A stretch of DNA of 64,000 nt from positions 62,001-126,000 of the forward strand of contig JADZDD010000017.1 of NCBI GenBank assembly GCA_020851235.1, given 5' to 3'. Shown one piece after another: positions 17,988-35,305 of this stretch. The notes beneath the pieces are model-generated. The model saw only the letters and a program-made list of their open reading frames with translations, made no database searches and had not been told where the DNA came from. The DNA comes from Burkholderiales bacterium. GTDB taxonomy: Bacteria > Pseudomonadota > Gammaproteobacteria > Burkholderiales > Casimicrobiaceae. Within the stretch, counting starts at the first letter, position 1; every line of letters begins with the position of its first letter. A program made the position numbers and the translations under genes.

Positions 17988-19346
17988 GTGGTGAAGCGCA
18001 GCCCCGCGACCGCGCGCCACGACGCGCCGCGGGTCGGCTTCGTCTCGCTCGGTTGCCCGAAGGCGCTCGTCGACTCGGAGCGCATCCTCACGCAACTGCG
18101 CGCCGAGGGCTACACGATCGCGCCCGACTACGGCGGCGCGGACCTCGTCGTCGTCAATACCTGCGGCTTCATCGATGCCGCCGTGGCCGAGTCGCTCGAC
18201 GCGATTGGCGAGGCCCTCGCCGAGAACGGCAAGGTCATCGTCACCGGCTGCCTCGGCGCCCGCGAGGGCGGCGAGTTCGTGCGCGAGGCGCACCCCCGGG
18301 TGCTCGCCGTCACTGGCCCGCACGCGACGGCGGAGGTGATGCACGCGGTGCACGCGCACCTGCCCCGCCCCCACGACCCCTTCGTCGACCTCGTCCCGCC
18401 GCAGGGCATCAAGCTCACGCCGACGCACTACGCGTACCTGAAGATCAGCGAGGGCTGCAACCATCGCTGCACGTTCTGCATCATTCCGTCGCTGCGCGGT
18501 GACCTCGTGAGCCGCCCGTTCGGCGACGTCATGCAGGAGGCGGAGAACCTCGTCCGCGCCGGCGTGAAGGAGCTGCTCGTCGTGTCGCAGGACACGAGCG
18601 CCTACGGTGTCGACGTGCGCTACCGCACGGGCTTCTGGCAGGGGCGTCCGGTCAAGACCCGCCTGACCGAGCTCGCGGCAGCGCTCGGCAGTCTCGGCGT
18701 GTGGGTTCGGCTGCATTACGTGTATCCGTATCCGCACGTCGACGCCGTGCTTCCGCTCATGGCCGAGGGTCGGATCCTGCCGTACCTCGACGTCCCCTTC
18801 CAGCACGCGAGCCCGCGCATCCTCAAGCTCATGAAGCGCCCGGCCAATGCCGAGAACACGCTCGCGCGCATCGCGGCGTGGCGCGCGATCTGTCCCGAGC
18901 TCACGTTGCGCTCGACCTTCATCGTGGGCTTTCCGGGCGAGACCGAAGCCGAGTTCGAGGAACTCCTCGCCTTCCTCGAGGCCGCCCAACTCGACCGCGT
19001 GGGCTGCTTCGCGTACTCGCCGGTGGAAGGCGCCACCGCCAACGCGCTGCCCGACCCGGTGCCCGAGGCCCTGCGTGAGGAGCGGCGCGCGCGCTTCATG
19101 GCGGTGCAGGCGAGGATCAGCGCCGCGCGGCTGGCCCGCAAGGTCGGCACCACGCTCGACGTCCTCGTCGACGCAGTGACGGGGTCGCGGGCGCAGGCCC
19201 GGTCGAAGGCGGACGCCCCCGAGATCGATGGCGTGGTGCACGTCACGCAGGCCAAGGGATTGCGCGCGGGGGACCTGGCGCGCGTGACGGTGACCGCTGC
19301 CGACACGCACGACTTGACCGGCAAGCGCGTCGCCTCCGACACGTAG
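17988..19346 (+). CDS. rimO: Ribosomal protein S12 methylthiotransferase
   Basis: A 452-residue radical-SAM methylthiotransferase that modifies Asp88/89 of ribosomal protein S12. The N-terminal UPF0004 domain has [28 protein letters not shown] and [10 protein letters not shown], which supply the three auxiliary-cluster cysteines. The radical-SAM CxxxCxxC is in [20 protein letters not shown]. The C-terminal TRAM domain ends in LTGKRV. RimO rather than MiaB is indicated by CPKALVDSE and the overall length. The start is GTG, with a second in-frame GTG directly after it. Confidence 0.96.
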
Positions 19347-19486
19347 CGGCGCCGGCGCCGCCGACTCGTGCGATCATTGGCGCGCGTCGCGCCATGAATC
19401 GCCTTCGACCGCATCGGCGTGCCGGTGCGCGGCGCGACGTGCCGTTGGCCGTACCCCCCCGTCGTCGCCTGTCGTCACCCGCGCCC

Positions 19487-20731
19487 ATGAGCCCTTGCCG
19501 TTCGCGCCTCGCCCACGTCGTACCCTTCCTTGCCGTGGCTGCGCTCGTCGCCGCATGCAGCAAGGAAGTGCCACCGCCGCCCCGACCGGCGCCCGAGGTC
19601 GCCGTCGTCACGATCGAGCCGCGGACGATTCCCTACACGCCGACCTTCGTCGCGCAAACGGAGAGCTCGCGTCAGGTCAACATCGTCGCCCGCGTGTCGG
19701 GCTTTCTCGACAGCATCGCGTATTCGGAAGGCGATCTCGTCAAGCAAGGCCAGCTCATGTTCAAGCTGGATACCAAGCCCTTCCTCGCGCAGCTCAATGC
19801 CGCCAAGGGCGAACTGCAGGCGCAGCAGGCGCGCCTCGACACCGCGCAGGTGACCTACCGGCGCGTGAAGCCGCTCGCCGACCAGGATGCGTTGCCGCAG
19901 ATGGACCTCGACCGGGCCAAGGGCGAACTCGACGCCGCGCGCGCCGCCGTGTTCTCGGCGCAGGCCAAGGTCGAGGAAGCGACGCTGAATCTCGGTTACG
20001 CGACGATCACCTCGCCGGTCACCGGTGTGGCGAGCCGCTCGCTGCAGCGCCAGGGCGCGTACGTGAACGCGCTCGCCGACAGCGCCAACCTCACCTACGT
20101 GGCCGCCCTCGATCCCATCTGGGTGAACTTCAGCATCTCGCAAAACCAGATGGCGCACTTCCAGGAGCTCGCCGAAAAGCATCTCGTCGTCGCGCCCAGG
20201 GACGACAACTTCGACGTCGAGATCATCCTTCCCAACGGCACGCCGTACGCGAAGCGCGGCCAGATCGGCTTTGCCGACCCCTCGTTCAGCCCCGACACCG
20301 GCGCGTTCCTGGTTCGCGCGGTGATCCCCAATCCCAGGCACGAACTGCGCCCCGGCATGTTCGTCACCGCGCGCCTCTTGGGCGCCGTGCGCCCCAATGC
20401 CATCGTGGTGCCGCAGCTCGCGGTGCAGCAGGGCAGCAACGGTCACGCGGTCTTCGTGGTCGGCGCCAACGGCGTTGCCGAAGTGCGCCCGGTGATCGTC
20501 GGCGACTACGTCGGCGACAAGGACATCGTGATCCAGACCGGGCTCAATCCCGGTGATCGGGTGATCGTCGACGGCATGATGCGCGTCGTGCCGGGACAGC
20601 CGGTGCGCATCGCGGCGACGAGCGCCACCCCCGCAGCGGCGGCGCCTGCGGGTGGTGCCGCGCCGGCAGCCGGCGGCGCCACCGCGGGCAAGCCGACGGA
20701 CGCGAGCAAGGCCGACGCCAAGAAGAAGTAG
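19487..20731 (+). CDS. RND efflux periplasmic adaptor lipoprotein (system 1)
   Basis: A 414-residue membrane-fusion protein of the AcrA/MexA group. It has a lipoprotein signal with the lipobox VAACS, then the adaptor domains: lipoyl half-motifs (VNIVARVSGFLDSIAYSEGD and LGYATITSPVTGVASRSL), an alpha-hairpin between them, and a beta-barrel (FADPSFSPDTGAFLVRAVIP with RPGMFVTARL). The C terminus ends in an Ala/Pro/Gly-rich tail and KADAKKK, longer than usual. Only three bases separate it from the RND pump gene. It would bridge that pump to the outer-membrane factor. Confidence 0.94.
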   Translation: MSPCRSRLAHVVPFLAVAALVAACSKEVPPPPRPAPEVAVVTIEPRTIPYTPTFVAQTESSRQVNIVARVSGFLDSIAYSEGDLVKQGQLMFKLDTKPFLAQLNAAKGELQAQQARLDTAQVTYRRVKPLADQDALPQMDLDRAKGELDAARAAVFSAQAKVEEATLNLGYATITSPVTGVASRSLQRQGAYVNALADSANLTYVAALDPIWVNFSISQNQMAHFQELAEKHLVVAPRDDNFDVEIILPNGTPYAKRGQIGFADPSFSPDTGAFLVRAVIPNPRHELRPGMFVTARLLGAVRPNAIVVPQLAVQQGSNGHAVFVVGANGVAEVRPVIVGDYVGDKDIVIQTGLNPGDRVIVDGMMRVVPGQPVRIAATSATPAAAAPAGGAAPAAGGATAGKPTDASKADAKKK

Positions 20732-20734
20732 CCG

Positions 20735-23700
20735 ATGTTCACGCATTTCTTCATCGACCGGCCGATCCTGTCGTCGGTCATCTCGATCCTGTTCGTGCTC
20801 GCGGGGCTGGTCGCAATGTCGGTCGCCCCGATCGAGCAGTACCCGGAGCTCGCACCGCCGTCGGTGTCGATCTCGGCCTCGTATCCGGGAGCCACGGCGG
20901 AGGTGATCGCCAACCAGGTGGCCGCCCCGATCGAGGCGCAGATCAACGGCGTGGACAACCTCCTGTACTTCTCGTCGACTTCCTCGTCGTCAGGGAGCGT
21001 ATCGATCCAGGCGGTGTTCGCGCCGGGGAGCGACCCCGACATCAACCAGGTGAACGTGCAAAACCGCGTGAACCAGGCGCTCTCGCAGTTGCCGCAGACG
21101 GTCACGCAGCAGGGGGTGACCGTCGAGAAGGTGTCGTCGGCGATCATGATGGTGCTGTCGATCTATTCCAACGACGACCGCTACACGTCGACCTACGTCG
21201 ACAACTACACGAACCTCTACGTCCTCGACGAGTTGAAGCGCGTGCCGGGCGCCAATCGCGCCTCGGTGCTCGGCATGCCCGACATCGCGATGCGCGTGTG
21301 GCTGCAGCCGGATCGCATGGCGCAGCTCGGGATCACCGTCCAGGAGGTCGCCAACGCGCTGCAAAGCCAGAACCAGACCTTCGGCATCGGCCAGATCGGC
21401 GGCCAGCCCGCGGTCCCGGGAACGCAGCAGACGTTCGTGATCACCGCGCAGGGCCTGCTCACCCGGCCCGAGGAATTCGAGGACGTGATCATCCGTGCCG
21501 ACAAGACCGGTGCCGCGACGGTGCGCCTGCGCGACATCGGCCGGGTCGAGCTCGACAAGCGCGACTACTCGGTGGTCAGCCGCATGAACGGCAAGATCTC
21601 GACCACGATCGCGATCTACCAGCAGCCGGGCGCGAATGCGGTGGCCACCGCCAAGGCGGTGCGCGCGCGCCTCGCCGAATTGAAGCCGTCGTTTCCCACC
21701 GGCCTCGACTACCGCATCGCGCTCGATACCAGCCTCTTCACGCTGAACTCGATCGACAAGGTCGTGCACACGTTCTTCGAGGCGGTGGTGCTCGTCGTGC
21801 TCGTCGTGTTCGTGTTCCTGCAGTCGCTGCGCGCGACGGTGATCCCGATCCTCGCCGTGCCGGTGTCGATCATCGGCACCTTCGTCGGGATGCACCTGCT
21901 CGGCTTCTCGATCAACATGCTGACGCTCTTCGGCATGATCCTCGCCATCGGGCTCGTCGTCGACGATGCGATCGTCGTCGTCGAGAGCGTCGAGGCCAAC
22001 ATGGCCGAGCGCGGGATCGGTCCGCTCGCCGCGGCCAAGCTCACGATGACGCAGATCGCAAGCGCGCTCATCTCGATCGTCCTCGTGCTGGTCGCCGTCT
22101 TCCTGCCGGTCGCCTTCCTCGGCGGCGTGACCGGCAAGCTCTACCAGCAGTTCGCGGTGACGATCGCGATCTCGATGGTGATCTCGGGGATCATGGCGCT
22201 TACCCTCTCGCCGGCGCTGGCCGCCCTCATCCTGAAGGCACAGCACGGGACGAAGAACCGTTTCTTTCGCGCCTTCGAGCGCGGCTTCGAAGTGATCCGC
22301 GACGGCTACCTCGGGGTGATCGCCCGCGCGCTGCGCGGCTGGCCGCTCGCGCTCATCGCCTTCGCCGTGATCCTCGCCGGCATCGGCTACATGTTCCGCA
22401 CGCTCCCCTCGAGCTTCGTGCCCGAGGAGGACCAGGGCTACTTCTTCACCGCGATCGTGGCACCGGACACGGCGAGCCTCGAGGTGACCGCCGCGATCAC
22501 GAAGCGCGTGCAGGAAGCGGTGTCCGCGGACCCTGCCGTGCAGGACGTCGCGTCGGTCGCCGGCTACAGCCTCCTCGACGGCCAGCTCGCCAACAACGGC
22601 GCGATCCTCTTCGCGTCGATGAAGCCCTTCGAGGAGCGCACCGACGCCTCGCTGCTGTCGTTTGCCGTGCTGCCGCGGATCAACGCCAAGCTCGCGCAGA
22701 TCCGCGAAGCCTTCACCCTCGCGATCAATCCACCGTCGATTCCCGGCATGGGGTCGATCGGCGGCTTCGAGTTCTACCTGCAAAGCCGCGGCAGCGCCGA
22801 TCCTCGCGCGCTTGGTGCGGCGGTGAATGCCTTCATCGCCAAGGCGCGCGAGCGGCCCGAGCTGCAAGGCGTGTCGACCACGTATCGACCGGCGACGCAG
22901 CAGCTCTTCGTCGATCTCGACCGCAGCAAGGCCGAGGTCCTGGGCGTCACCGTCGCCGAGGCGTTTGCCACCATGCAGGCGTTCTTCGGCTCGCAGGTCG
23001 TCGGCCAGTTCGCACAGTTCTCGCGCGTGTGGTGGGTGATCCTGCAGGCCGACGCCGACTACCGCATGCGGCCGTCCGACTTCGACAAGATCTTCGTGCG
23101 CTCACGTTCGGGCGCCAACGTCCCGCTCTCCTCGCTCATCACGACGAGATACGTCGCCTCCCCGAAGCTCGTGACGCGCTTCAACGGCTTCACGGCGGTG
23201 AAGATCACCGGCTCGCAGGCGCCGGGCTTCAGTTCGGGTCAGGCGCTCGCCGCGATGGAAGAGGTCGCGCGCGAGCTTCCCGGCGACTTCTCGTACGCAT
23301 GGGCGGGGCAGGCGCTGCAGGAGAAGCAGTCGGGCAGCACGTCGAGCTCGGCGTTCGTCTTCGGATTGATCCTCGTCTTCCTGCTGCTCGCCGCGCAGTT
23401 CGAGAAATGGACGCTGCCGATCGCCGTGGTGCTCACCATTCCGGTGGCGGTGCTCGGCGCCTTGCTCCTCACCTGGGCGGTGGGGCTCGAAAACGACGTC
23501 TACTTCCAGGTCGGCCTCGTCACGCTCGTGGGACTGTCCGCCAAGAACGCGATCCTGATCTGCGAGGTGGCCATCGAGCACGTGCGCGACGGCATGCCAC
23601 CCCGCGAGGCGGCGCTCGTCGCCGCGAAGGCGCGGCTGCGCGCGATCGTCATGACCTCACTCGCCTTCGGCTTCGGCTGCGTGCCGCTCGCGCTCGCCAC

Positions 23701-23929
23701 CGGCGCCGGCGCCAACAGCCTGCGCGCGATCGGCACCGGCGTCATCGGCGGCATCGCGGCGTCGATGCTGGTTGCCGTGATCTTCGCGCCGCTCTTCTTC
23801 TTCCTGCTGGAGTCGCTGTCGCAGCGCGTCGCCGGCAAGCGCCACGGCGGCACGCGCGACACCGCCGCCACGACGCCAACCCGGGCGAGCACGCCGCCGG
23901 CGGGCGACGCGACGCCCGATGCGCACTGA
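20735..23929 (+). CDS. RND multidrug efflux pump, HAE1 family (system 1)
   Basis: A 1064-residue AcrB/MexB-like proton-drug antiporter of the inner membrane. It has 12 predicted membrane helices in the family arrangement with two large periplasmic loops. The proton relay pair lies in LVVDDAIVVVESVEANMAE (about residues 410-411), and the partner Lys in GLSAKNAILICEVAIEH. The N terminus MFTHFFIDRPILSSVISIL is canonical, as is FVPEEDQGYFF. Substrates cannot be predicted. It lies between its adaptor and its outer-membrane factor, and its last 11 bases overlap the latter. No TetR or two-component regulator is adjacent. Confidence 0.95.
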   Translation: MFTHFFIDRPILSSVISILFVLAGLVAMSVAPIEQYPELAPPSVSISASYPGATAEVIANQVAAPIEAQINGVDNLLYFSSTSSSSGSVSIQAVFAPGSDPDINQVNVQNRVNQALSQLPQTVTQQGVTVEKVSSAIMMVLSIYSNDDRYTSTYVDNYTNLYVLDELKRVPGANRASVLGMPDIAMRVWLQPDRMAQLGITVQEVANALQSQNQTFGIGQIGGQPAVPGTQQTFVITAQGLLTRPEEFEDVIIRADKTGAATVRLRDIGRVELDKRDYSVVSRMNGKISTTIAIYQQPGANAVATAKAVRARLAELKPSFPTGLDYRIALDTSLFTLNSIDKVVHTFFEAVVLVVLVVFVFLQSLRATVIPILAVPVSIIGTFVGMHLLGFSINMLTLFGMILAIGLVVDDAIVVVESVEANMAERGIGPLAAAKLTMTQIASALISIVLVLVAVFLPVAFLGGVTGKLYQQFAVTIAISMVISGIMALTLSPALAALILKAQHGTKNRFFRAFERGFEVIRDGYLGVIARALRGWPLALIAFAVILAGIGYMFRTLPSSFVPEEDQGYFFTAIVAPDTASLEVTAAITKRVQEAVSADPAVQDVASVAGYSLLDGQLANNGAILFASMKPFEERTDASLLSFAVLPRINAKLAQIREAFTLAINPPSIPGMGSIGGFEFYLQSRGSADPRALGAAVNAFIAKARERPELQGVSTTYRPATQQLFVDLDRSKAEVLGVTVAEAFATMQAFFGSQVVGQFAQFSRVWWVILQADADYRMRPSDFDKIFVRSRSGANVPLSSLITTRYVASPKLVTRFNGFTAVKITGSQAPGFSSGQALAAMEEVARELPGDFSYAWAGQALQEKQSGSTSSSAFVFGLILVFLLLAAQFEKWTLPIAVVLTIPVAVLGALLLTWAVGLENDVYFQVGLVTLVGLSAKNAILICEVAIEHVRDGMPPREAALVAAKARLRAIVMTSLAFGFGCVPLALATGAGANSLRAIGTGVIGGIAASMLVAVIFAPLFFFLLESLSQRVAGKRHGGTRDTAATTPTRASTPPAGDATPDAH

Positions 23930-25427
23930 CATGCGCCCGCTCACCCCGCATTCGACCTGGCATCGGCGCGCCGCTCGCGGCGCAGCCGCCCTCGCCTGGT
24001 GCGCGCTCGCCGCGTGCACCGTCGGCCCCGACTACGTGCAGCCCACGGTGCCAACGCCCCCCGCGTGGCGCGTCACCTACGACACCGCCGCCGACATCGC
24101 CAACACCCGCTGGTGGGAGCACTTTGGCGACCCCGTGCTCACCGGCCTCATCGAATCCGCGCTGCGCGAGAACCGCGACCTCGTGATCGCCGCGGCCCGG
24201 GTCGACGCCTTCATCGGCCAGCTCCAGGCCACGCGCGCGCAGTATTACCCGCAGGTCAACTACAGCCTCGATGCAAGCCGCAACCGCACGACGCGGGTGG
24301 GCGCGTCCCCGCTGCCCGAAGGTGCGGACCCCTACTATTCGCTCTACCAGGGCGCGCTCGGCGCGTCGTGGCAGGTGGACCTCTTCGGTCGCGTGCGGCG
24401 GCAGACGGAGGCGGCGCAAGCGCGCGTCTACGCCACCGAGCAGGGGCGCCGCGGCGTCGTGCTGTCGGTGGTGACGAGCGTGGCGGCGAGCTACATCGCG
24501 CTGCGCGCGCTCGACAAGCAACTCGAGATCTCGCAGCGAACGGCGCAGAACAACGCCAATACGCTGCGCATCTTCGATCTGCGGCACAAGGGTGGCGTCG
24601 TCTCGCGCCTGGAGCTCGAGCAGGTGCAATCGCAGTACCAGCAGGCGCTCGCTGCGATCCCCGCGATCGAGCAGCGGATCGCCGCGCAGGAAAATCTCCT
24701 CGCCGCACTGCAGGGCCGTAACCCGTATCCGATCCCGCGCGGCAAGCCGATCGATGCACTCGTGCTGCCGCCGATCCCCGCCGACCTTCCAGCCTCGCTC
24801 CTCACCCGCCGGCCCGACCTCCTGCAGGCCGAGCAGGACATGATCGCCGCCAACGCCGACGTCGGCGCGGCCGAGGCGCTGTACTACCCGCAGTTCAACC
24901 TCACCGCCTCGCTCGGCTCGATCAGCGCCGCCTTCGGCAACTTCCTCACCGGTCCGGCGAGCGCGTGGACGCTGGCCGCCGGCCTCGCCGGTCCGCTCTT
25001 TACCGCGGGCGCCATCGAAGGCCAGGTCGCCGCCGCGAAGGCTTCCTCGGCCGCGGCGGTCGCCGCGTACCAGCAGGCGATTCTCATCGCCTTCCGCGAG
25101 ACCAACGACGCGCTCGCCGGGACCGTGAAGAAGCGCGTCGAGGCCGCGGCGCAGGCAAAGCGGGTCACCTCGCTGCGTGAGTACGCGCGCCTGTCGCGCG
25201 TGCGCTTCAACAGCGGCTATGCGAGCTACCTCGAGGTGCTCTACGCCGAAAACGAGCTCTTCGCCGCCGAACTCACCGCGGTGCAGACCTACGCCGACGG
25301 CTACACGCAGCTCGTCGCGGTGTACCGGGCGATGGGCGGTGGCTGGATCGATCTTGCCGATGCGGGAACCGCCGCAGGCGCCCGTGTCCCGGCGCGCGAG
25401 CGCGCGGCGCGGCAGCCGCTCTTCTGA
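23919..25427 (+). CDS. RND outer-membrane factor lipoprotein, NodT family (system 1)
   Basis: A 502-residue TolC/OprM-like channel. It carries a lipoprotein signal (ALAACTVGPDY), the early RWWEHFGDPVL block, and the paired repeats of the family (ASWQVDLFGRVRRQTEAAQA and SLLTRRPDLLQAEQDMIAAN). It starts inside the end of the pump gene. A second ATG four codons later is an equally good start. It completes a three-gene tripartite pump. Confidence 0.93.
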   Translation: MRTDMRPLTPHSTWHRRAARGAAALAWCALAACTVGPDYVQPTVPTPPAWRVTYDTAADIANTRWWEHFGDPVLTGLIESALRENRDLVIAAARVDAFIGQLQATRAQYYPQVNYSLDASRNRTTRVGASPLPEGADPYYSLYQGALGASWQVDLFGRVRRQTEAAQARVYATEQGRRGVVLSVVTSVAASYIALRALDKQLEISQRTAQNNANTLRIFDLRHKGGVVSRLELEQVQSQYQQALAAIPAIEQRIAAQENLLAALQGRNPYPIPRGKPIDALVLPPIPADLPASLLTRRPDLLQAEQDMIAANADVGAAEALYYPQFNLTASLGSISAAFGNFLTGPASAWTLAAGLAGPLFTAGAIEGQVAAAKASSAAAVAAYQQAILIAFRETNDALAGTVKKRVEAAAQAKRVTSLREYARLSRVRFNSGYASYLEVLYAENELFAAELTAVQTYADGYTQLVAVYRAMGGGWIDLADAGTAAGARVPARERAARQPLF

Positions 25428-25521
25428 GCGGCCTGCGCCGCATCCGTGACCCACGACCAAGCCGCTGCGCGGGCGGCGCGAAGGTCGCGATCGGCCGCCC
25501 CCGCCTGTCGCGATAGGCGAT

Positions 25522-25537
25522 ATCTTCGCGCGAAGAT
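25522..25537. promoter_or_regulatory. Perfect palindrome ATCTTCGCGCGAAGAT in the yiaW promoter
   Basis: A 16-base perfect palindrome lies directly upstream of a TATAAT (25544-25549), where a -35/spacer region would be. The outer flanks (GCGAT and ATCGC) extend the symmetry with a two-base offset. It looks like the operator of an unlinked regulator. Confidence 0.6.
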
Positions 25538-25543
25538 CGCTCC

Positions 25544-25549
25544 TATAAT
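25544..25549 (+). promoter_or_regulatory. -10 box (TATAAT) before the yiaW-yiaV-OMF unit
   Basis: A perfect TATAAT overlaps the first possible ATG of the DUF3302 gene (25548). If used, transcription would start near 25556 and translation at the next in-frame ATG (25575). No good -35 box is visible, as expected for a regulated promoter. Confidence 0.5.
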
Positions 25550-26114
25550 GCTCCGCCTTCTCGCCACCTCGCCCATGCGCGCCCTGCTTCGCTGCTACCT
25601 CGCCGTTGGCGTCACCCTCTTCGCCCCGCTCGCCCGGGCGTCGTTCCTCTCTGGCGACGCGCTCGACACCATGGCCGACTGGATCGCGATCATCGTGCTG
25701 GTGGTCGTCCCCCTCGGCGTGCTCGTCGTGTTCTGGATGATCCACGTCCTGCCCGAGAAGATCGCCGAGAAGCGCCACCACCCGCAGAAGGACGCGATCA
25801 ATACCGTTTGCCTCCTGTCGCTCGTGTTCGGCGGATTGCTGTGGCCCATTGCGTGGATCTGGGCATACACGAAGCCCGTGGCCTACCGCGCCGCCTACGG
25901 CACCGACAAGCACGACGACTACTACCTCGACATGGGCGAGCGCGCGCGGTCAGGTGAGCTGACCGACACCGGCATCGCGCACCTGCGCCAAGAACTCGAC
26001 ACGATGGCGCGACGCGGCGGTGGGCTCTCCCCGGCGCTGGTCGCGCTGCGCTCCGAGCTCGACGCGCCGCCGGTGCATGCGCATGCCGATGCGGCAACGA
26101 CGCCAGGGGCATGA
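25548..26114 (+). CDS. yiaW: DUF3302 inner-membrane protein, YiaW-like
   Basis: A 188-residue protein (179 if started at 25575). It has an N-terminal signal or membrane helix (CYLAVGVTLFAPLARAS), then the DUF3302 core of two hydrophobic helices around HVLPEKIAEKRHHPQKDAIN. The core closes with LVFGGLLWPIAWIWAYTKP, as in E. coli YiaW. The C-terminal 70 residues are a soluble extension absent from the roughly 107-residue E. coli protein. It is followed after three bases by the yiaV-like HlyD gene, the same pairing as in E. coli. Its function is unknown; it may help the adaptor insert or serve as the inner-membrane part of an export system. Confidence 0.82.
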   Translation: MLRLLATSPMRALLRCYLAVGVTLFAPLARASFLSGDALDTMADWIAIIVLVVVPLGVLVVFWMIHVLPEKIAEKRHHPQKDAINTVCLLSLVFGGLLWPIAWIWAYTKPVAYRAAYGTDKHDDYYLDMGERARSGELTDTGIAHLRQELDTMARRGGGLSPALVALRSELDAPPVHAHADAATTPGA

Positions 26115-26117
26115 CGC

Positions 26118-27341
26118 GTGGAAGCTCTCCTCCTCGGCATCTATTCGTTCTTCGTCTGGCTCATCTTCATCAAGCTGAAGTGGCTGCCGTGGAACATCAC
26201 GTCGCAGGTCATCGTGGTGATCATCCCGGTCGTGGCGCTGACGGCGATGGTGCTCACCTTGAACGTCGTCGCGCCGACGTCGGGCAACCTGCGCGTGTAC
26301 AAGTACACGATCCCCATCGTGTCGCAGGTGAAGGGCCGCGTGCTGGAGGTGCCGGTGGAGGAAGGCAATCGCCTCGTGCACAAGGGCGACGTGTTGTTCC
26401 GTGTCGACCCGACGCCGTACCACCTCGACGTGTCGAACCTCGAAGCGCAACTTGCGCTGGCCGAAGGTGGACAACGCGAGACGCAAGAATCACTCGCGGG
26501 CGCGGCCGCGAAGGTGGCCGAGGCGCGCGCGACGATCGCGCAGGCCGCCGCGCGTCTTGCAGAAGTGGATGCCCGCCTCGGCCTTGCGCGCAAGCGCGTC
26601 GAACAGCACCGCGAGCTCGTGGCGTCGGGCGCCGGCAACCGCTTCGACCTCGAGCAGGCCGAGGCGACGGTGGCCGAACTCACCGGCCAGCGCGAGTCCG
26701 TGCTCGGCACCGAGGCGCAGGCGCGCGCCGCCGAGGCGCAGGCGCAGGCATCGGTTGCGCAGATCCGCCAGAAGCTCGGCACCAAGGTGGATGGCACGTA
26801 CGCGCAGGTCGCGCAGATCCGCGCCCAACTCGACAACGCACGCTGGCTCCTCGAGCAAACCACCACGGTCTCACCGTGCGAATGCCACGTGATCAACTTG
26901 CAGCTTCGCGAGGGTGCCTTCGTCGCCGGCGTTCCCTTGAATCCGGTGATGACGCTCGTCGAGGCCGACGGCCAGATCGTGGCGTTCTACGCGCAAAACG
27001 AGCTCACCCGCGTGCAGGCGGGTGACGAGGCGGAATTCGCACTCGACACCTACCCGGGTCGCATCGTGAAGGGCAAGGTCGACTCGATCGTGTGGGCGAT
27101 CGGACAAGGGTCGCTGCCGCCGTCCGGCACCATTCCGCTGTCGACGCTCGCGACCCAGCCGCCGGGGCAATTCGCCGTGAAGTTCGACCTCGCGCCGCGC
27201 GACAAGGACGTATTCCTCGCCGCCGGCGCGGTCGGTCAGGCCGCGATCTATACGCAGTACGGGGTCATGCTGCACGTGGTGCGCAAGGTCATCCTGCGTG
27301 TGGGATCGTATCTCAACTACCTCATCCTCAAGCTGCACTGA
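26118..27341 (+). CDS. yiaV: HlyD-family membrane-fusion protein, YiaV-like
   Basis: A 407-residue adaptor. The start is a GTG (MEALLLGIYSFFVWLIFIKL). Two N-terminal hydrophobic helices are followed by the barrel-sandwich half-motif (YTIPIVSQVKGRVLEVPVEE), a long Ala/Glu/Gln-rich coiled-coil hairpin (about residues 110-250), the second half (TTVSPCECHVINLQLREGAF) and a beta-barrel. It ends in a hydrophobic segment (YGVMLHVVRKVILRVGSYLN). The dual N-terminal helix layout is that of E. coli YiaV/YibH/EmrA-AaeA relatives. It sits between DUF3302 and an outer-membrane factor. There is no FUSC, ABC or MFS pump in the unit. Confidence 0.88.
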   Translation: MEALLLGIYSFFVWLIFIKLKWLPWNITSQVIVVIIPVVALTAMVLTLNVVAPTSGNLRVYKYTIPIVSQVKGRVLEVPVEEGNRLVHKGDVLFRVDPTPYHLDVSNLEAQLALAEGGQRETQESLAGAAAKVAEARATIAQAAARLAEVDARLGLARKRVEQHRELVASGAGNRFDLEQAEATVAELTGQRESVLGTEAQARAAEAQAQASVAQIRQKLGTKVDGTYAQVAQIRAQLDNARWLLEQTTTVSPCECHVINLQLREGAFVAGVPLNPVMTLVEADGQIVAFYAQNELTRVQAGDEAEFALDTYPGRIVKGKVDSIVWAIGQGSLPPSGTIPLSTLATQPPGQFAVKFDLAPRDKDVFLAAGAVGQAAIYTQYGVMLHVVRKVILRVGSYLNYLILKLH

Positions 27342-27345
27342 CGCC

Positions 27346-28845
27346 ATGCGCGCGCTCGTGGCAAGCCTGGCGGTCGCGCTACTCGTCGCCGGCTGCGCGC
27401 TGGCGCCGCCACCCCCGATCGCCGAGACGCGACAGGCGGCGCTGCCGCAGATGGTGATACCGCCGCGCTACGCCGCGCAGCCTTCGCCCGCCGCAGCGGC
27501 AGGCGAAGGCGCGGCGAGCATCGCGCGAGCACCGGCTGTGGTCACGGATGGCTGGATCGCCGCCTTCCACGATCCGACGCTGGTCGCGCTCGTGGCCGAG
27601 GCCATCGCCTACAACAGCGACCTGCGGATCGCCCAGGCGCGCGTCGAGCAAGCACAGGCCTACCTCAAGATCGCCGGCGCCACCCTCTACCCCCAGGTGA
27701 GCGTACTCGGTCGCGGTGGCGGCAAGATGTCCGACAGCAGCGGATTGTCCGGCATCGGCGTGTTCGTGAACTGGGAGCTCGATCTGTGGGGTCGCGTGCG
27801 CTCGGGTCAGGCGTTCGCGCAAGCGCAGTACGACGCCGCGCAACTCGATGCCGAGTACGCGCGCCAATCCGTCGCGGCTCTTGTCGCCAAGGGCTGGTTC
27901 CTGGCCACCGAGGCGCGCTTGCAGCAAGCGCAGGCGAGTGCGATGCGCGAAGCCGCCACCAAGCTTGCCGACCTCGCGCAGGAGCGCGGCCGGGTCGGTC
28001 GCGGCGACGAGCTCGACGTCGCACTCGCGCAGGCCGCGGTCGCCTCGCTGCGCGATACCGAGCGCGCACTCGCGGCGGCATATCAGCAAGCAGTCCGCGG
28101 CGTGGAGACGCTTGTCGGGCGCTATCCCGCGGCCTCACTCGAAGTGCCCGTCACACTCGCCGCCTGGCCCGGCGACGTTCCGGTGGGACTGCCGTCGGAA
28201 TTGCTCGAGCGGCGCCCCGACGTGGTGGCGGCCGAACGACGCGTCGCCGGCGCCTTTCATCGCACCGAGGAGGCCAAGGCTGCTCGCCTGCCGCGCATCA
28301 CGCTCACCGCCAGCATCACCACGATCTCGAGCGAGCTTTTCTTCCTCAAGAGCCACGACAACCCGGTGTGGAGCCTCGGCGCGGGTCTGCTGCAACCCAT
28401 CTTCCTCGGCGGTCAGCTCCAGGGTCAGGTGGAGGTGCGCACCGCCGAGCAGCAGCAGGCCGTCGCCGAGTACGGCCGCATCGGTGCGCGGGCGTTTGCC
28501 GAGGTCGAGGAGTCGCTGTCGAACGGTTACGCGCTGGCCGATCGTGAGGCGCTGCTCGCCACTGCGGTGCGCGAGAATGCGCGCGCGCTCGACCTCGCCG
28601 GAGTGCGTTATCGCGTGGGCGTGGGTGACCTGCGCGCCGTGCAGCAGCAGCAACTCGCCCTCCACGCGGCGCAGGTGCAGCTCCTGCGCGTGCAAGCCGA
28701 GCGGCGGGTGCAGCGCGTCAACCTGCACCTGGCGCTCGGCGGCAGCTTCGACGCGCCGTCGCAGATGAGCCGCGGCGTGGGCACACCCACGCACGACGAA
28801 GCGAGAACCGCCGCCGGCGCCACCTCCACGGCCAGCGGCCGCTAG
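27346..28845 (+). CDS. Outer-membrane factor lipoprotein, NodT family (YiaVW-linked)
   Basis: A 499-residue TolC/OprM-type channel with a lipoprotein signal (VALLVAGCALAPPPP). The family repeats are visible: FVNWELDLWGRVRSGQAFAQ in the first half and SELLERRPDVVAAERRVAGA in the second. It ends with a Ser/Thr/Ala-rich tail. It starts five bases after the HlyD gene stop, so this is a DUF3302-HlyD-OMF operon. It is clearly less like the other two OMFs of the array than those two are like each other (they share CTVGPDY and RRPDL.QAE). Confidence 0.92.
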   Translation: MRALVASLAVALLVAGCALAPPPPIAETRQAALPQMVIPPRYAAQPSPAAAAGEGAASIARAPAVVTDGWIAAFHDPTLVALVAEAIAYNSDLRIAQARVEQAQAYLKIAGATLYPQVSVLGRGGGKMSDSSGLSGIGVFVNWELDLWGRVRSGQAFAQAQYDAAQLDAEYARQSVAALVAKGWFLATEARLQQAQASAMREAATKLADLAQERGRVGRGDELDVALAQAAVASLRDTERALAAAYQQAVRGVETLVGRYPAASLEVPVTLAAWPGDVPVGLPSELLERRPDVVAAERRVAGAFHRTEEAKAARLPRITLTASITTISSELFFLKSHDNPVWSLGAGLLQPIFLGGQLQGQVEVRTAEQQQAVAEYGRIGARAFAEVEESLSNGYALADREALLATAVRENARALDLAGVRYRVGVGDLRAVQQQQLALHAAQVQLLRVQAERRVQRVNLHLALGGSFDAPSQMSRGVGTPTHDEARTAAGATSTASGR

Positions 28846-28985: not shown

Positions 28986-30557
28986 ATGATCGCCCCACCC
29001 GTCCTGCCGCCGCGATGCGCGGCGCGTGTCGGCCTCGTCGCGCTCGTCCTTGCCGCACTCGTTGCCGGCTGCGGCCGCGAGCCGCCCAAGGCGCCGGAGA
29101 AGGGCCCCGTCGCGGTCACCACACAGGCGATCCAGCGCCACGACGTGCCGCTCACCGCGGTCTACGTCGCGCAAACGCAAAGCTCGCAGGCGGTGAACAT
29201 CCAGGCGCGCGTCGCGGGCTGGCTCGACAAGCGCCTGTACGTCGAAGGCGCGGTCGTGCGCCGCGGGCAGGTCCTGTTCCAGATGGATGCCAAGCCCTTC
29301 CAGGCGCAGCTCGACGCCGCGAAGGCGGCGCTCCAGCGCAACGAGGCGGCGCTGCAGGTGGCCCGTGCCAACCTCAATCGCACGAAGCCGCTCGCGCAAC
29401 TGAACGCGCTGTCGCAAAAGGACCTCGACGACGCCCAGGGTCAATACGAGCAGGCGGCCGCCGCGGTCGCGCAGGCGCGCGCGCAGGTGACCGAGGCCGA
29501 GCTCAACCTCTCCTACACGACGATTCGCTCGCCGGTCGATGGCGTGTCGAGCTTCGCGGTGGTCGCCGACGGCACGTACCTGTCGCCCAGCAATTCGCAG
29601 CTCACCACCGTGTCGGTGCTCACCCCGATGTGGGTCAACTTCAGCGTTTCCGAGAATGAGATGGAGCGGATCCGCAACGAAGTGCGCGCCGGGCAGTTGC
29701 GCCTGCCCGAAGGCGGCCGCTTCGTGGTCGAGATCGAAATGGTCGACGGCAACCTCTTTCCGTATTCGGGTGCCATCACCTTCGCGGATCCGTCGTACAA
29801 CCCGACCACGGGCACGTTCATGCTCCGCGCCACGGTGAACAACCCCGCCGGCGTGCTGCGCCCGAACCAGTACGTGCGCGTGCGACTCAACGGCGCGGTG
29901 CGGCCGAACGCGATCGTCGTGCCGCAGCGCGCCGTGCAGCAAAGCGCCAAGGGCCACTTCGTGTGGGTGGTGGACAAGAGCGCGCACGCGGAGCTGCGCC
30001 CGGTGGTCGTCGGTGACTGGAAAGGAGAAGGCTGGATCATCGCCGACGGCCTGAACGACGGCGACCAGGTCGTGATCGACGGCGGCGTCCGTCTCACCGA
30101 GGGCGCCGCCGTGAAGGCGACGCCGTACGTGCCGGCTTCACCGCCGGCGCCGGCCGCAGCGGGAGGCACGCCGCAAAAGGGCGCCGCGGGCGTCGATCCG
30201 GGCCGCGGCGCAACCCCGCTGCCGGCGCCGTATCCGTCCGCCACGCCATCGAGCGTCGCGGTCTACTTCCCGAAGGGGCTCGCGAGCCTCGACGCGGCGG
30301 CGCTGCGCACGCTGCGCCTCGCCGCCGCAGCGTACGTCGGCATCGGCACCAGGATCGAAGTGACCGGTTACGCCGACCGCACCGGCAACGCCGCCGCCAA
30401 TGTCGAGCTTGCACAAAAGCGCGCCCAAGCGGTGCGCGACGAGCTCGTGCATCTTGGCGTCAAGGCGCAGCGCATCGCCCTCGTCGCGCCCGTGGCGGTG
30501 ACCGGGTCGGGCCCCGACGACCAGGCGCGTCGCGTCGATCTGCGCGTCCAGCAGTAG
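28986..30557 (+). CDS. RND efflux adaptor fused to an OmpA-like peptidoglycan-binding domain (system 2)
   Basis: A 523-residue protein. Residues 1-28 form a lipoprotein signal with lipobox LVAGC. Residues about 40-375 are a complete AcrA-type adaptor (AVNIQARVAGWLDKRLYVEG, YTTIRSPVDGVSSFAV, FADPSYNPTTGTFMLRATVN, RPNQYVRVRL). A Pro/Ala/Gly linker spans about 376-420. Residues about 422-523 are an OmpA/MotB-like domain: VAVYFPKG opening, VTGYADRTGNAAANVELAQK with RAQAVRDELVHLGV, and ARRVDLRV at the end. Asp464 and Arg479, 15 residues apart, match the diaminopimelate-binding pair of OmpA (Asp271/Arg286 in Acinetobacter). Normal adaptors stop near residue 380-400. The pump gene follows after 12 bases. 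Confidence 0.9.
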   Translation: MIAPPVLPPRCAARVGLVALVLAALVAGCGREPPKAPEKGPVAVTTQAIQRHDVPLTAVYVAQTQSSQAVNIQARVAGWLDKRLYVEGAVVRRGQVLFQMDAKPFQAQLDAAKAALQRNEAALQVARANLNRTKPLAQLNALSQKDLDDAQGQYEQAAAAVAQARAQVTEAELNLSYTTIRSPVDGVSSFAVVADGTYLSPSNSQLTTVSVLTPMWVNFSVSENEMERIRNEVRAGQLRLPEGGRFVVEIEMVDGNLFPYSGAITFADPSYNPTTGTFMLRATVNNPAGVLRPNQYVRVRLNGAVRPNAIVVPQRAVQQSAKGHFVWVVDKSAHAELRPVVVGDWKGEGWIIADGLNDGDQVVIDGGVRLTEGAAVKATPYVPASPPAPAAAGGTPQKGAAGVDPGRGATPLPAPYPSATPSSVAVYFPKGLASLDAAALRTLRLAAAAYVGIGTRIEVTGYADRTGNAAANVELAQKRAQAVRDELVHLGVKAQRIALVAPVAVTGSGPDDQARRVDLRVQQ

Positions 30558-30569
30558 CGGACGAGCCAC

Positions 30570-33500
30570 ATGCTGTCGCGCTTCTTCATCGAGCGACCGG
30601 TCTTCGCGGCCGTCGTCGCGCTCCTCATCTGCCTCACCGGCGTCGTGGCGATGCTGCAGCTTCCCGTCGCCCAGTACCCGACGATCACGCCGGTGCAGGT
30701 CACGGTGTCGGCGACGTATCCGGGCGCGGATTCGCGCACGCTCGCCGAGTCGGTCGCCTCGCCGCTCGAGCAGCAGATCAACGGCGTGGACAAGATGCTC
30801 TACATGTCATCGACGTCGAGCTCCACCGGGCAGCTCACGATGACGATCTACTTCTCGCTCGACACCGATCCGGACATCGCGCAGGTGCAGGTGCAAAACC
30901 GGGTGAACCTCGCGCTGCCGCAGTTGCCGTCGGCGGTGGTGCAGCAGGGCGTCAACGTGCAGAAGAAGTCCTCGTCGATCATGATGCTCGTGGGCATCTA
31001 CGCCAGGGACAATCGCTACGGCGCGAACTACATCGCCAACTACGCGAACGTGTACGTGCTGGAGGCGCTGAAGCGCGTCAACGGCGCCGGCCAGGCGCAG
31101 ATCATGGGCGTGCCCAACCAGGCGATGCGCATCTGGATGAACCCGGACCGCATGGCCTCGCTCGGCATCACGACATCCGACATCGCCAACGCGATCAACC
31201 AGCAGAACCAGCTCTTCGGCGCCGGCCAGATCGGCCAGCAGCCCAATGCCGGGCCGGTCGAACTCACCTTCCCCGTCATCACCCAGCCGCAGTACACCGA
31301 TCCGCGGCAGTACGAGAACATCATCCTGCGCGCATCGCAGGATGGCACCGCGATCGTGCGCGTGGGCGACGTCGCGCGCGCGGAGATCGGCCTGCAGCAG
31401 TACATCGTCAACAGCGAGCTCAACGGCACGCCGGCGACGATCATCGCGGTCTACCAGCAGCCGGGCGCCAACGGCCTCGCGGTGTCGAAGGCGGTGCGCG
31501 ACACGCTGGCGCAGATGAAGACCAAGTTTCCCGACGGGATGGACTACGTCGTCGCGCTCGACACCAACGACTTCGTGCGCCTGTCGATCAAGGAAGTCAT
31601 CAAGACGCTGTTCGAGGCGATCGTTCTGGTCGTGCTCGTCGTGTACCTCTTCCTGCAGAGCTTCCGCACCACGATCATCTGCTCGGTGGCGATCGTGATC
31701 GCGCTGATCGCAACCTTCGCCGGCATGCTGGCCCTCGGCTTTTCGATCAACCTCCTGACGCTGTTCGGACTGGTGCTCGCGATCGGCATGGTGGTCGACG
31801 ATGCGATCGTGGTCGTCGAGAACGTCGAGCGCAACATGGCGCAGCATCACCTGGCGCCGAAGGCGGCGACGATCCAGGCGATGGACGAGATCGCAAGCTC
31901 GCTCGTTGCGGTGGTGCTCGTGATGTGCTCGGTGTTCATCCCCGCGGCCTTCCTGCCCGGGACCACCGGCCAGCTCTACAAGCAGTTCGCAATCACCATC
32001 GTGATCTCGGTTTCGGTGTCGGGCTTCGTCGCGCTCACCGTGACGCCGGCGATGTGCGCGGCGCTGCTCAGGCACAACCCGCCGCCGACACGGGGCCCCT
32101 TCGCCTGGTTCAATCGCCAGGTCGATCGCGTCACCGCGGCCTTCGGCACCGCCGTGACGTACGTCATCAAGCATGCGGCGGTGGCGCTCGTCCTGCTCGC
32201 GGTGTTCCTCTACTCGATCTATCACCTGTTCACGGTGCTGCCGACGAGCTTCGTCCCCAACGAGGACCAGGGCTACGCCTTCGCGGCGATCATCATGCCG
32301 CAGGCAGCAAGCCTCGCCCGCACGCAGGAGATCGCCGCGCGCGCCGATGCGATCTTCAAGGAGATCCCCGGCGTGCGCACGCGCACCGTGGTGACCGGCT
32401 ACAGCCTCCTCGACAGCGGCTTCAAGACCAACGCCGGGACGATCTTCGTCACCTTCGACGACTTCGAGAAGCGCTACGCCGACCTCGCCACCACGAAGGC
32501 GCAGAATGCGCGCGCGATCCTGCAGGCCTTCTACGCGAAGGCGAGCCAGATCGAGGGGGCGATCGTGGTGCCGATCGCGCCACCGGCCATTCCCGGCATC
32601 GGCACCACGGGCGGCTTCGAGTTCTGGATCCAGGACACCGGCACCGGCGACCCCGTCGCACTCGGCAACGTGCTGCAGGACTTTCTCAAGGCGGCCCGCG
32701 CGCGACCCGAACTCACCGGGCTCGCCTCGACGTACTCGGCATCGACGCAGCAGCTCAAGGCCGACGTCGACCGCGAGAAGGCGCAGCTCCTCGGCATTCC
32801 CATCCAGGACGTGTACAGCGCGATCCAGACGCAGTTCGGCTCGCTCGCGGTGAGCCAGTACAACCTCTTCTCGAACGTGTGGTGGGTGATCCTGCAATCC
32901 GACGCACCGTACCGGCAAAACCCCGAGGACCTGACCCGCCTGTACACGCGCAACGCGCACAACCAGATGGTGCCGCTGTCGTCGGTGGTGACCACGCATT
33001 GGACCTCGGGGCCGGACATCCTGCCGCACTTCAACGGCTTCACCGCGGCCAAGATCAACGGCAACGCGGCGGCCGGCTACAGCTCGGGCGATGCCATCGC
33101 GACCATGGAAGCGGTGGCGCAACAGGTGCTGCCGCCCGGCTACACGTTTGCGTGGTCGGGCCTCGCGTTCGAGGAGAAGCAGTCGGGAGGCACTTCGGGC
33201 CTCGCCTTCGTCTTCGGCTTCATCATCGTTTTCCTCGTGCTCGCCGCGCAGTACGAATCGTGGACGCTGCCCGGCGCGGTGATGTCGGCGGTCCCGTTCG
33301 GCATCCTGGGCGCGCTCCTCACCAACCACCTGCGCGGACTCGACAACGACGTGTACTTCCAGATCGGCCTTCTCGTCCTCATCGGCCTCGGAGCCAAGAA
33401 TGCCGTGCTGCGCGTATCGGCGGCGATCGACTTCCGCAAGCAGGGCAAGTCGATCATGGAGGCGACGATCCTCGCCGGCGAGCAGCGGTTGCGGCCGATC

Positions 33501-33770
33501 ATCATGACGTCGCTCGCCTTTGCCGTGGGCTGCCTGCCGCTCGCGCTCGCCGTCGGCGCCGGCGCCAATGCCCGCCATTCGATCGGCACCGGCATCATCG
33601 GCGGCATGCTGGGCGAGACCACGCTCGCCATGCTCTACGTGCCGCTGCTCTTCTATCTGTTTGACCGCATGCGCGAAGGCAAGGACGAGGGCCACGTCGA
33701 GGGCAAGGGCGAAGCCAGCGCCGAGACCAACGCCGCGGCCAGCGCGCCGGCCGCGCCGCGCACCGACTGA
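30570..33770 (+). CDS. RND multidrug efflux pump, HAE1 family (system 2)
   Basis: A 1066-residue AcrB-like pump starting MLSRFFIERPVFAAVVALLI, with 12 predicted helices and two large periplasmic loops. The proton-relay acidic pair is in MVVDDAIVVVENVERNMAQ, and Lys943 is in GLGAKNAVLRVSAAIDF. In that helix AcrB-type pumps read AKNAILIVEFA; here an Arg (948) and a Ser (950) replace the usual aliphatic residue and the Glu. The C-terminal tail is charged (KDEGHVEGKGEASAE). It follows the OmpA-fused adaptor. Its stop shares one base with the start of the outer-membrane factor (TGATG). Substrate unknown. Confidence 0.95.
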   Translation: MLSRFFIERPVFAAVVALLICLTGVVAMLQLPVAQYPTITPVQVTVSATYPGADSRTLAESVASPLEQQINGVDKMLYMSSTSSSTGQLTMTIYFSLDTDPDIAQVQVQNRVNLALPQLPSAVVQQGVNVQKKSSSIMMLVGIYARDNRYGANYIANYANVYVLEALKRVNGAGQAQIMGVPNQAMRIWMNPDRMASLGITTSDIANAINQQNQLFGAGQIGQQPNAGPVELTFPVITQPQYTDPRQYENIILRASQDGTAIVRVGDVARAEIGLQQYIVNSELNGTPATIIAVYQQPGANGLAVSKAVRDTLAQMKTKFPDGMDYVVALDTNDFVRLSIKEVIKTLFEAIVLVVLVVYLFLQSFRTTIICSVAIVIALIATFAGMLALGFSINLLTLFGLVLAIGMVVDDAIVVVENVERNMAQHHLAPKAATIQAMDEIASSLVAVVLVMCSVFIPAAFLPGTTGQLYKQFAITIVISVSVSGFVALTVTPAMCAALLRHNPPPTRGPFAWFNRQVDRVTAAFGTAVTYVIKHAAVALVLLAVFLYSIYHLFTVLPTSFVPNEDQGYAFAAIIMPQAASLARTQEIAARADAIFKEIPGVRTRTVVTGYSLLDSGFKTNAGTIFVTFDDFEKRYADLATTKAQNARAILQAFYAKASQIEGAIVVPIAPPAIPGIGTTGGFEFWIQDTGTGDPVALGNVLQDFLKAARARPELTGLASTYSASTQQLKADVDREKAQLLGIPIQDVYSAIQTQFGSLAVSQYNLFSNVWWVILQSDAPYRQNPEDLTRLYTRNAHNQMVPLSSVVTTHWTSGPDILPHFNGFTAAKINGNAAAGYSSGDAIATMEAVAQQVLPPGYTFAWSGLAFEEKQSGGTSGLAFVFGFIIVFLVLAAQYESWTLPGAVMSAVPFGILGALLTNHLRGLDNDVYFQIGLLVLIGLGAKNAVLRVSAAIDFRKQGKSIMEATILAGEQRLRPIIMTSLAFAVGCLPLALAVGAGANARHSIGTGIIGGMLGETTLAMLYVPLLFYLFDRMREGKDEGHVEGKGEASAETNAAASAPAAPRTD

Positions 33771-35305
33771 TGGCCGTGCCGCGCACCCTCCCCCCCGGTA
33801 CCGCGGCCCCGCGCGCATGGCGCAGGCGCGCGCGGCATCGCGCGTGGCGCGTGCTCGCCGCCGCGCTGGGTGCAGTGCTCGCGACCGGCTGCACCGTCGG
33901 CCCCGACTACGCGCGCCCGACGATCGCTACGCCGACGCGCTTCGCGTACCTGCCCAAGGACGCCGCCGAGGTCGCCAACAGCCGCTGGTGGCAGCAGTTC
34001 GACGACCCGGTCCTCGACGCGCTCATCGCCGAGGCGCTCGCGCACAACGAGAACGTGAAGGTCGCCGCCGGCAACGTCGAAGCGGCCGCCGGCATCCTCA
34101 CGCAGACGCGCTCGGCCGCGTTCCCGCAGGTGGGTTACGACGCGAGCGCCGGACGCACGCGCACCAGCGAGGCCGGCATGGCGCCCGAACTCGCGGCACG
34201 CATTCCCAATCCGCAGGGCGCGTACCAGGCACTGCTCTCGGCGAGCTGGGAGATCGACCTGTGGGGTCGCATCCGGCGCCTGTCCGAAGCGGCGCGGGCG
34301 AATCTCCTGGCCACCGACGAGGCGCGCAAGGGCGTGATCCTGACGCTCGTCGCCGGTGTGGCGACCAACTACCTCACGCTGCGCGGCCTCGACCAGCAAC
34401 TCATCGTCGCGAAGCAGACACTCGCCGCGTACGGCGAGTCGTTGCAACTGTTCAAGCTGCAGTTCCAGTACGGCCAGATCTCGCAGATGAACGTGGCGCA
34501 GGTGCAGTCGCAATACGAAACCGCCGCCGCGCAGATCCCGCAGATCGAATCGCAGATCGCGCAGATCGAGCTTGCCTTGGGCGTGCTGCTCGGCCGCAAC
34601 CCCGGCCCGATCCCGCGCGGCAAGTCGATCTACGAGCTGGTGCTGCCGGCCGTGCCGGCGGGACTGCCGTCGCAGCTTCTCACGCGGCGGCCCGATCTCG
34701 TGCAGGCGGAGAACGAGCTGATTGCGGCCAACGCACAGATCGGCGCCGCGCGCGCGCTGTACTTCCCCACCGTCTCGCTCACCGGAGGCGGCGGCACGGC
34801 GAGCGCGTCGCTGTCCGATCTGTTCCACGGGCCGGCGCGCGTGTGGAGCTACGCCGGCGCGCTCGCCGGACCGATCTTCACGTTCGGTGCGGTGAGCGGC
34901 CAGGTCGCGCAGGCCGAAGGCGCGCGCGAAGCGGCACTCGCCGGCTACCGCTACGCGATCCAGAATGCATTTGCCGAGGTCGACACCTCGCTCGTGGCGA
35001 ACCAGAAGGTGCAAGAGCAGCTCGCCGCGCAGCAGCGCCTGGTCGATGCGCTGAAGGACTACGCGCGGCTCGCGCATCTGCAATACGACGGCGGCTACAC
35101 GTCGTACACGACGGTGCTGCAGGCCGAGCAGCAGCTCTTTCCGGCGGAACTCGCGCTGGCGGCGGTGCGCGCTTCCACGTTCAGCTCGAGCGTGGCGATC
35201 TACAAGGCGATGGGCGGTGGCTGGATCGTCGACGCCGACCGCATGACCGGCAACGCCGCGCCGCCCCCGGCCACGCGCGCCACGGGGATGCCGCCGCTGT
35301 TCTAA
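33770..35305 (+). CDS. RND outer-membrane factor lipoprotein, NodT family (system 2)
   Basis: A 511-residue OprM-type channel. An Arg-rich start and hydrophobic stretch end in the lipobox VLATGCTVGPDYARP. It has the early SRWWQQFDDPVLDALIAEAL, then SWEIDLWGRIRRLSEAARAN and SQLLTRRPDLVQAENELIAA. It is translationally coupled to the pump (TGATG) and ends the nine-gene efflux array. The 85 bases beyond it, facing the convergent AspT gene, contain no obvious terminator. Confidence 0.93.
   Translation: MAVPRTLPPGTAAPRAWRRRARHRAWRVLAAALGAVLATGCTVGPDYARPTIATPTRFAYLPKDAAEVANSRWWQQFDDPVLDALIAEALAHNENVKVAAGNVEAAAGILTQTRSAAFPQVGYDASAGRTRTSEAGMAPELAARIPNPQGAYQALLSASWEIDLWGRIRRLSEAARANLLATDEARKGVILTLVAGVATNYLTLRGLDQQLIVAKQTLAAYGESLQLFKLQFQYGQISQMNVAQVQSQYETAAAQIPQIESQIAQIELALGVLLGRNPGPIPRGKSIYELVLPAVPAGLPSQLLTRRPDLVQAENELIAANAQIGAARALYFPTVSLTGGGGTASASLSDLFHGPARVWSYAGALAGPIFTFGAVSGQVAQAEGAREAALAGYRYAIQNAFAEVDTSLVANQKVQEQLAAQQRLVDALKDYARLAHLQYDGGYTSYTTVLQAEQQLFPAELALAAVRASTFSSSVAIYKAMGGGWIVDADRMTGNAAPPPATRATGMPPLF

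Follow-up and report, generated by a model that had tools for sequence, protein, structure and literature searches.

Can a tripartite efflux pump be fastened to the cell wall by one of its own subunits? This question is raised by a gene in a 64,000-nucleotide stretch of DNA, here called the window, from a Burkholderiales bacterium of the family Casimicrobiaceae (assembly GCA_020851235.1, contig JADZDD010000017.1, positions 62,001 to 126,000). The gene at 28986-30557 of the forward strand is one unbroken open frame of 523 codons for a periplasmic adaptor of the resistance-nodulation-division (RND) type that ends in an OmpA-like domain. A preliminary description, made from the letters alone, had proposed that this adaptor carries a built-in peptidoglycan anchor. 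On the sequence evidence the observation was right, and its reading appears sensible but unproven. The parts of the fusion gene are as follows.

28986..30557, +, RND periplasmic adaptor with C-terminal OmpA-like domain, 523 amino acids (open reading frame, profile matches and structure model)
28986..29072, +, signal peptide ending in the lipobox LVAGC, with Cys29 at 29070-29072 (from sequence)
29103..30119, +, AcrA/MexA-type adaptor core, residues 40-378
30120..30260, +, disordered linker, residues 379-425, 79% Pro/Ala/Gly/Ser/Thr (from composition and low pLDDT, the predicted local distance difference test score)
30261..30554, +, compact OmpA-like domain, residues 426-523
30375..30377, +, Asp464, counterpart by motif of Asp271 of Acinetobacter OmpA
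30420..30422, +, Arg479, counterpart by motif of Arg286 of Acinetobacter OmpA

Both domains were recognised by profile comparison. The adaptor part matches the NCBIfam family RND_mfp (TIGR01730) at residues 44-378 with 271 bits (cut-off 94.9; profile positions 1-321 of 322), and Pfam HlyD_D23 at residues 63-297. The OmpA part matches PF00691 at residues 427-501 with 48 bits (E 1.6e-12; gathering score 27.2; profile positions 1-78 of 98). In the predicted structure, an adaptor fold and an OmpA-like fold are both present; residues 423-522 are modelled as strand-helix-strand-helix-strand-strand, and pLDDT is below 50 at linker residues 385-421, in agreement with the Pro/Ala linker described previously. 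When the model was compared with the PDB using Foldseek, the best 50 of 744 matches were adaptors only; OmpA domains, including those of TolB-Pal (2hqs) and YfiB-YfiR (5eb1), were found among the structural matches in further listings. A chance OmpA match was ruled out by these profile and structure comparisons. The extension had been given as about 100 residues, which holds for the OmpA domain itself; with the linker counted, about 145 residues follow the core. An N-terminal lipid anchor, likewise claimed, is predicted from the lipobox match (VAGC, then GRE), and a lipobox-like motif occurs in the 13 fusions with an aligned N-terminus. The inner-membrane site that had been assigned to this anchor is a possible one.

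Asp464 and Arg479 are spaced 15 residues apart. The same distance separates the diaminopimelate-binding residues Asp271 and Arg286 of A. baumannii OmpA (PMC5974059), and sequence motif and profile alignments suggest that the two pairs are counterparts. The pocket Asp and Arg are kept in 14 of the 15 adaptor tails that were found. The ratio of nonsynonymous to synonymous substitution rates (dN/dS, Nei-Gojobori) was calculated against three relatives. The OmpA part gave 0.25-0.33, the core 0.10-0.26 and the linker, over 28-37 codons, 0.17-0.75. Therefore, the OmpA domain is under purifying selection.

The possibility that two genes were joined by a sequencing or frame error, which the preliminary description had named for about 30120-30250 as grounds for refutation, has a practically negligible probability. 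The GC content at codon position 3 is 0.80-0.96 throughout the gene, without a shift at the junction, and the same junction recurs in relatives: 12 other genomes, that of Variovorax dokdonensis among them, show the architecture at 14 further loci. Together, these two results rule out a frame error.

The fusion adaptor gene adjoins two genes with which it forms a tripartite efflux operon, as had been assumed.

30570..33770, +, RND permease of the AcrB type, 1066 amino acids (ACR_tran, 1039 bits)
33770..35305, +, outer-membrane channel of the NodT/TolC type, 511 amino acids (TIGR01845, 374 bits)

The permease gene begins 12 nucleotides past the adaptor stop codon, and an RND permease also follows the fusion adaptor in all 14 loci besides that of the window. 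The claim that ordinary adaptors lack such a tail was borne out: 75 complete tail-less adaptors have 2-79 residues after the core, compared with 126-193 in the fusions. The adaptor of the neighbouring RND system in the window (19394-20731, 445 amino acids) gave no OmpA match.

A search for proteins with both domains yielded, with the window counted, 15 loci in 13 genomes: G000 (the window genome), G052, G049, G025, G043 (three loci), G046, G004, G050, G044, G051, G460, G619 and Variovorax dokdonensis (L034). Two of the 15 loci are partial; one leaves its contig, and that of G619 has an in-frame stop upstream, its pieces being treated separately. Because 7-23 candidates per genome were scored, the following counts are lower bounds. 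Tail-bearing adaptors are present in at least 10 of 64 genomes of the family, in at least 4 of 399 genomes sampled from the order (G000, G044, G460 and G619) and in 1 of 369 sampled from the class. In the phylum sample of 359 genomes, which was judged by match span, the tail was spanned by the window's match alone. For the class and order samples, the adaptor frames of the other matched loci were also read, and none hides a tail behind a long linker. One candidate, class genome G366, in which the match crosses a stop codon, was rejected because no frame of at least 40 codons in L085 matched an OmpA profile. No plasmid-borne fusion was seen among 72,556 plasmid records: eight matched the query P0001 at E 1e-60, none over 80% of its length, and a COX2 tail query had no match, while a G460 tail query found one Rhizobium OmpA protein. 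The G619 gene itself (L104, 1486-3054, minus strand), with its adaptor part split by the in-frame stop, may be a pseudogene or reflect an assembly error.

Three sister adaptors (G047, G058 and G059) have no tail. They are 66-69% identical to the fusion adaptor overall and 72-73% in the cores. Behind them no vestige of a tail was seen, and the permease starts about 20 nucleotides past the stop codon. Near-kin operons of one genus with and without the tail offer a natural matched experiment.

The history of the tail was analysed in trees of the cores and of the tails. In the clade of the window's adaptor, 9 of 12 rows have the tail. When mapped on a tree built from 89 adaptor cores, the presence of the tail requires six changes, at least four of them forced by starred branches; placement of the 13 tail-bearing cores in one clade was rejected by the approximately unbiased test (p-AU 2e-6, 87 rows, L038 and L020 left out). 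The tail trees rest on about 100 columns. With a standard OmpA outgroup the adaptor tails are scattered (five changes, at least four forced by starred branches), and one long-branched standard OmpA row lands among them. Without the outgroup only two changes are needed, and a single clade fits slightly better than the free tree (p-AU 0.72). These trees therefore imply several gains of the tail, repeated loss of it or its transfer from one adaptor to another, and do not distinguish among the three.

The tail belongs to a wider compact module, which the preliminary description had overlooked. A profile, A1, was built from the 15 adaptor tails and the tail of the window genome's own H+-translocating pyrophosphatase. 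In that genome A1 has two strong places, the adaptor and the C-terminus of the pyrophosphatase (123.7 bits), where the tail follows an Ala/Pro linker (L007, 1486-3387, minus strand; contig 39 of G000, 18056-18349); the ordinary OmpA and Pal of the genome score 54 and 50 bits. Among the matches listed for 41 relatives, the own genome counted, none scores from 64.7 to 78.5 bits apart from the two that bound this gap. An A1 place at E <=1e-20 was seen in 60 of the 399 genomes sampled from the order. Ordinary long-form domains score up to 75.2 bits in a phylum sample of 349 genomes, and therefore the score gap is not clean outside the order. All places above 75.2 bits in that sample lie in the same order, except one in the class (G1066).

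A subset of the order-sample places was fetched and classified, and carriers were named by Pfam on 20 proteins, an ammonium transporter fragment among them, as listed here.

H_PPase: 1 protein
COX2 with cytochrome c: 3 proteins (L178, L182, L202)
cbb3 CcoP/FixP: 2 proteins (L220, L224)
reaction-centre cytochrome PufC: 3 proteins (L219, L143, L217)
DUF937: 3 proteins (L139, L185, L221)
BON: 1 protein (L227)
another c-type cytochrome: 1 protein
short proteins with no further family above cut-off: 4 proteins
ordinary long-form OmpA protein: 1 protein (L229)
ammonium transporter fragment: L226, 3440-5371, +, compact domain N-terminal, behind a signal-like peptide, 89.7 bits

The tails on H+-pyrophosphatase, COX2, CcoP, PufC, Amt and DUF937 proteins are of the same subfamily as the adaptor tail (at least 72 bits to A1), whereas the carriers differ and the Amt domain is N-terminal. 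In a simple hydrophobicity scan of 13 proteins without an assigned carrier, one hydrophobic stretch was found in ten, two in one and none in two. Of 65 aligned compact domains from the fetched loci (at least 75 bits and more than 90 residues, adaptor tails included), 63 keep both Asp and Arg; the exceptions are one adaptor, with Glu, and one PufC, with Ser. Four tails fell outside this set, three at 72.2-73.3 bits and one cut at a contig end. Both residues are also kept in all of 25 lower-scoring rows, one of the 72.2-73.3-bit tails among them. Judged by eye, the hallmark of the compact form is a short stretch before the last strand, usually ending Ala-Arg-Arg-Val, compared with a longer insert usually ending Asn-Arg-Arg in ordinary OmpA domains.

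From these sequence features we consider it probable that the fusion protein serves a tripartite RND pump as its adaptor and bears a compact OmpA-like, peptidoglycan-binding domain on a flexible linker, which would tether the adaptor-permease subassembly to the wall. We infer peptidoglycan binding, multivalency and a benefit for assembly or position. RND adaptors form a ring on the permease. Such a ring would present several tethered wall-binding domains per assembly, each of which could grip the diaminopimelate stem peptide via Asp464 and Arg479, and many weak contacts together might pin the subassembly to the wall. The tethers would hold it erect beneath openings of the mesh, and the inner-membrane half, held by the wall, would be made ready until the outer-membrane channel docks. 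A wall contact of ordinary adaptors had escaped the preliminary description: in an in situ study of E. coli, the AcrA hairpin contacts peptidoglycan, about 38% of the particles lack TolC, and the authors suggest a possible role of the wall in anchoring the AcrAB subcomplex or in recruiting TolC (PMC6570770). A tether of 28-95 residues at the adaptor base would add wall contacts, and the tail would thereby reinforce a contact that AcrA makes already with its hairpin rather than invent one.

Several observations weigh against such a tether. The tail is dispensable, since the three close relatives keep an intact-looking operon without it. In the copy on contig 88 of G043 (L101, 7012-8616, minus strand), Glu replaces the Asp and Gln-Arg the Arg-Arg pair, and the G004 copy has its Asp and Arg two positions nearer each other; these copies suggest that the pocket can drift or decay. 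By dN/dS, constraint on the OmpA part is weaker than on the core, and against the nearest relative, G052, the value of the linker (0.17, 37 codons) is lower than that of the domain (0.33). The shortened stretch before the last strand may affect ligand binding. Gly-Arg-Glu after the lipobox Cys fits the inner or the outer membrane alike, and an outer-membrane anchor would alter the tether picture. As a separate observation, G043 holds three fusions (L101, L089 and L090), and its L101 copy looks to be decaying.

Two other explanations of the tail were weighed. The domain might mediate protein-protein contact or oligomerisation, with the OmpA fold retained but another envelope protein, not peptidoglycan, as its partner. 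The fold does serve partner binding in the Pal-TolB and YfiB-YfiR complexes among the structural matches, and the shortening before the last strand in the aligned compact domains would suit this view; a carrier-specific partner would not, however, explain why the pocket Asp and Arg persist on unrelated carriers, and we regard this explanation as unlikely. Still more improbable is a nearly neutral passenger that was recombined from another OmpA-tailed gene and has no effect on the pump. It would account for the patchy presence of the tail in the window's adaptor clade, with sister operons cleanly without it, and for its rarity in the order. Exchange between adaptors also fits both trees, in which the cores are not one clade and one tail clade is not rejected. 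In contrast, the purifying selection on the tail and the retention of the ligand residues speak against a passenger.

The wall tether might extend beyond pumps. We infer that the order attaches the compact domain to inner-membrane machines as a reusable wall tether. Tentatively, one such domain could be a general tether that was shuffled in this order onto efflux adaptors, H+-pyrophosphatase, respiratory oxidases, the reaction-centre cytochrome and an ammonium channel, fixing these machines to peptidoglycan with undescribed effects on mobility, spacing or placement. Because such a tail recurs on energy-converting complexes, fixing to the wall may be a more widespread trait of inner-membrane machines. 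A comparable bioenergetic membrane subunit is the photosystem I PsaB chain 7f4v_aB, which has an OmpA-like C-terminal stretch (residues 755-831 of 872, E 3.3e-9) on a carrier and in a phylum unrelated to the fusion adaptor. The chain is from Gloeobacter violaceus. A Gloeobacter paper models PsaB residues 3-727 and mentions neither peptidoglycan nor OmpA (eLife 73990).

Compared with known systems, the fusion is best regarded as a new, two-domain form of RND adaptor. AcrA, MexA and MexC adaptors (TIGR01730) share its core domains, the lipobox and the operon with permease and channel, but they stop shortly past the core and have no OmpA domain. With the OmpA/Pal/MotB domain (PF00691) the tail shares the fold and the Asp and Arg of the diaminopimelate pocket, whereas it is compact in form and its carrier is a transport adaptor, not an outer-membrane or motor protein. 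YbjP, an accessory lipoprotein of AcrABZ-TolC by the titles of entries 9tg4 and 9v53, is also an extra envelope element on a tripartite pump; it is a separate pump-bound lipoprotein, whereas the OmpA tail is a domain of the adaptor. No described system of this kind had been known to the preliminary description, and in targeted full-text searches of open-licence papers no OmpA domain was seen described on an RND adaptor, a pyrophosphatase or an oxidase. One paper that came up in these searches, PMC10434189, proved to be on another subject. As far as that literature was searched, the tagging of inner-membrane machines with a compact OmpA domain thus appears to be a wider, undescribed habit. The fusion bears on a question raised by the in situ work on AcrAB-TolC, namely whether peptidoglycan contributes to the assembly of tripartite pumps (PMC6570770). 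Should the domain bind, the change of one residue could abolish the contact with the wall and leave the pump untouched.

The window contains one further arrangement of transport genes. At 25446-28845, genes for a DUF3302 protein, an MdtN/EmrA-like adaptor and a NodT-type channel follow one another with no permease gene among them; complete RND operons flank the group at 19394-25427 and 28986-35305.
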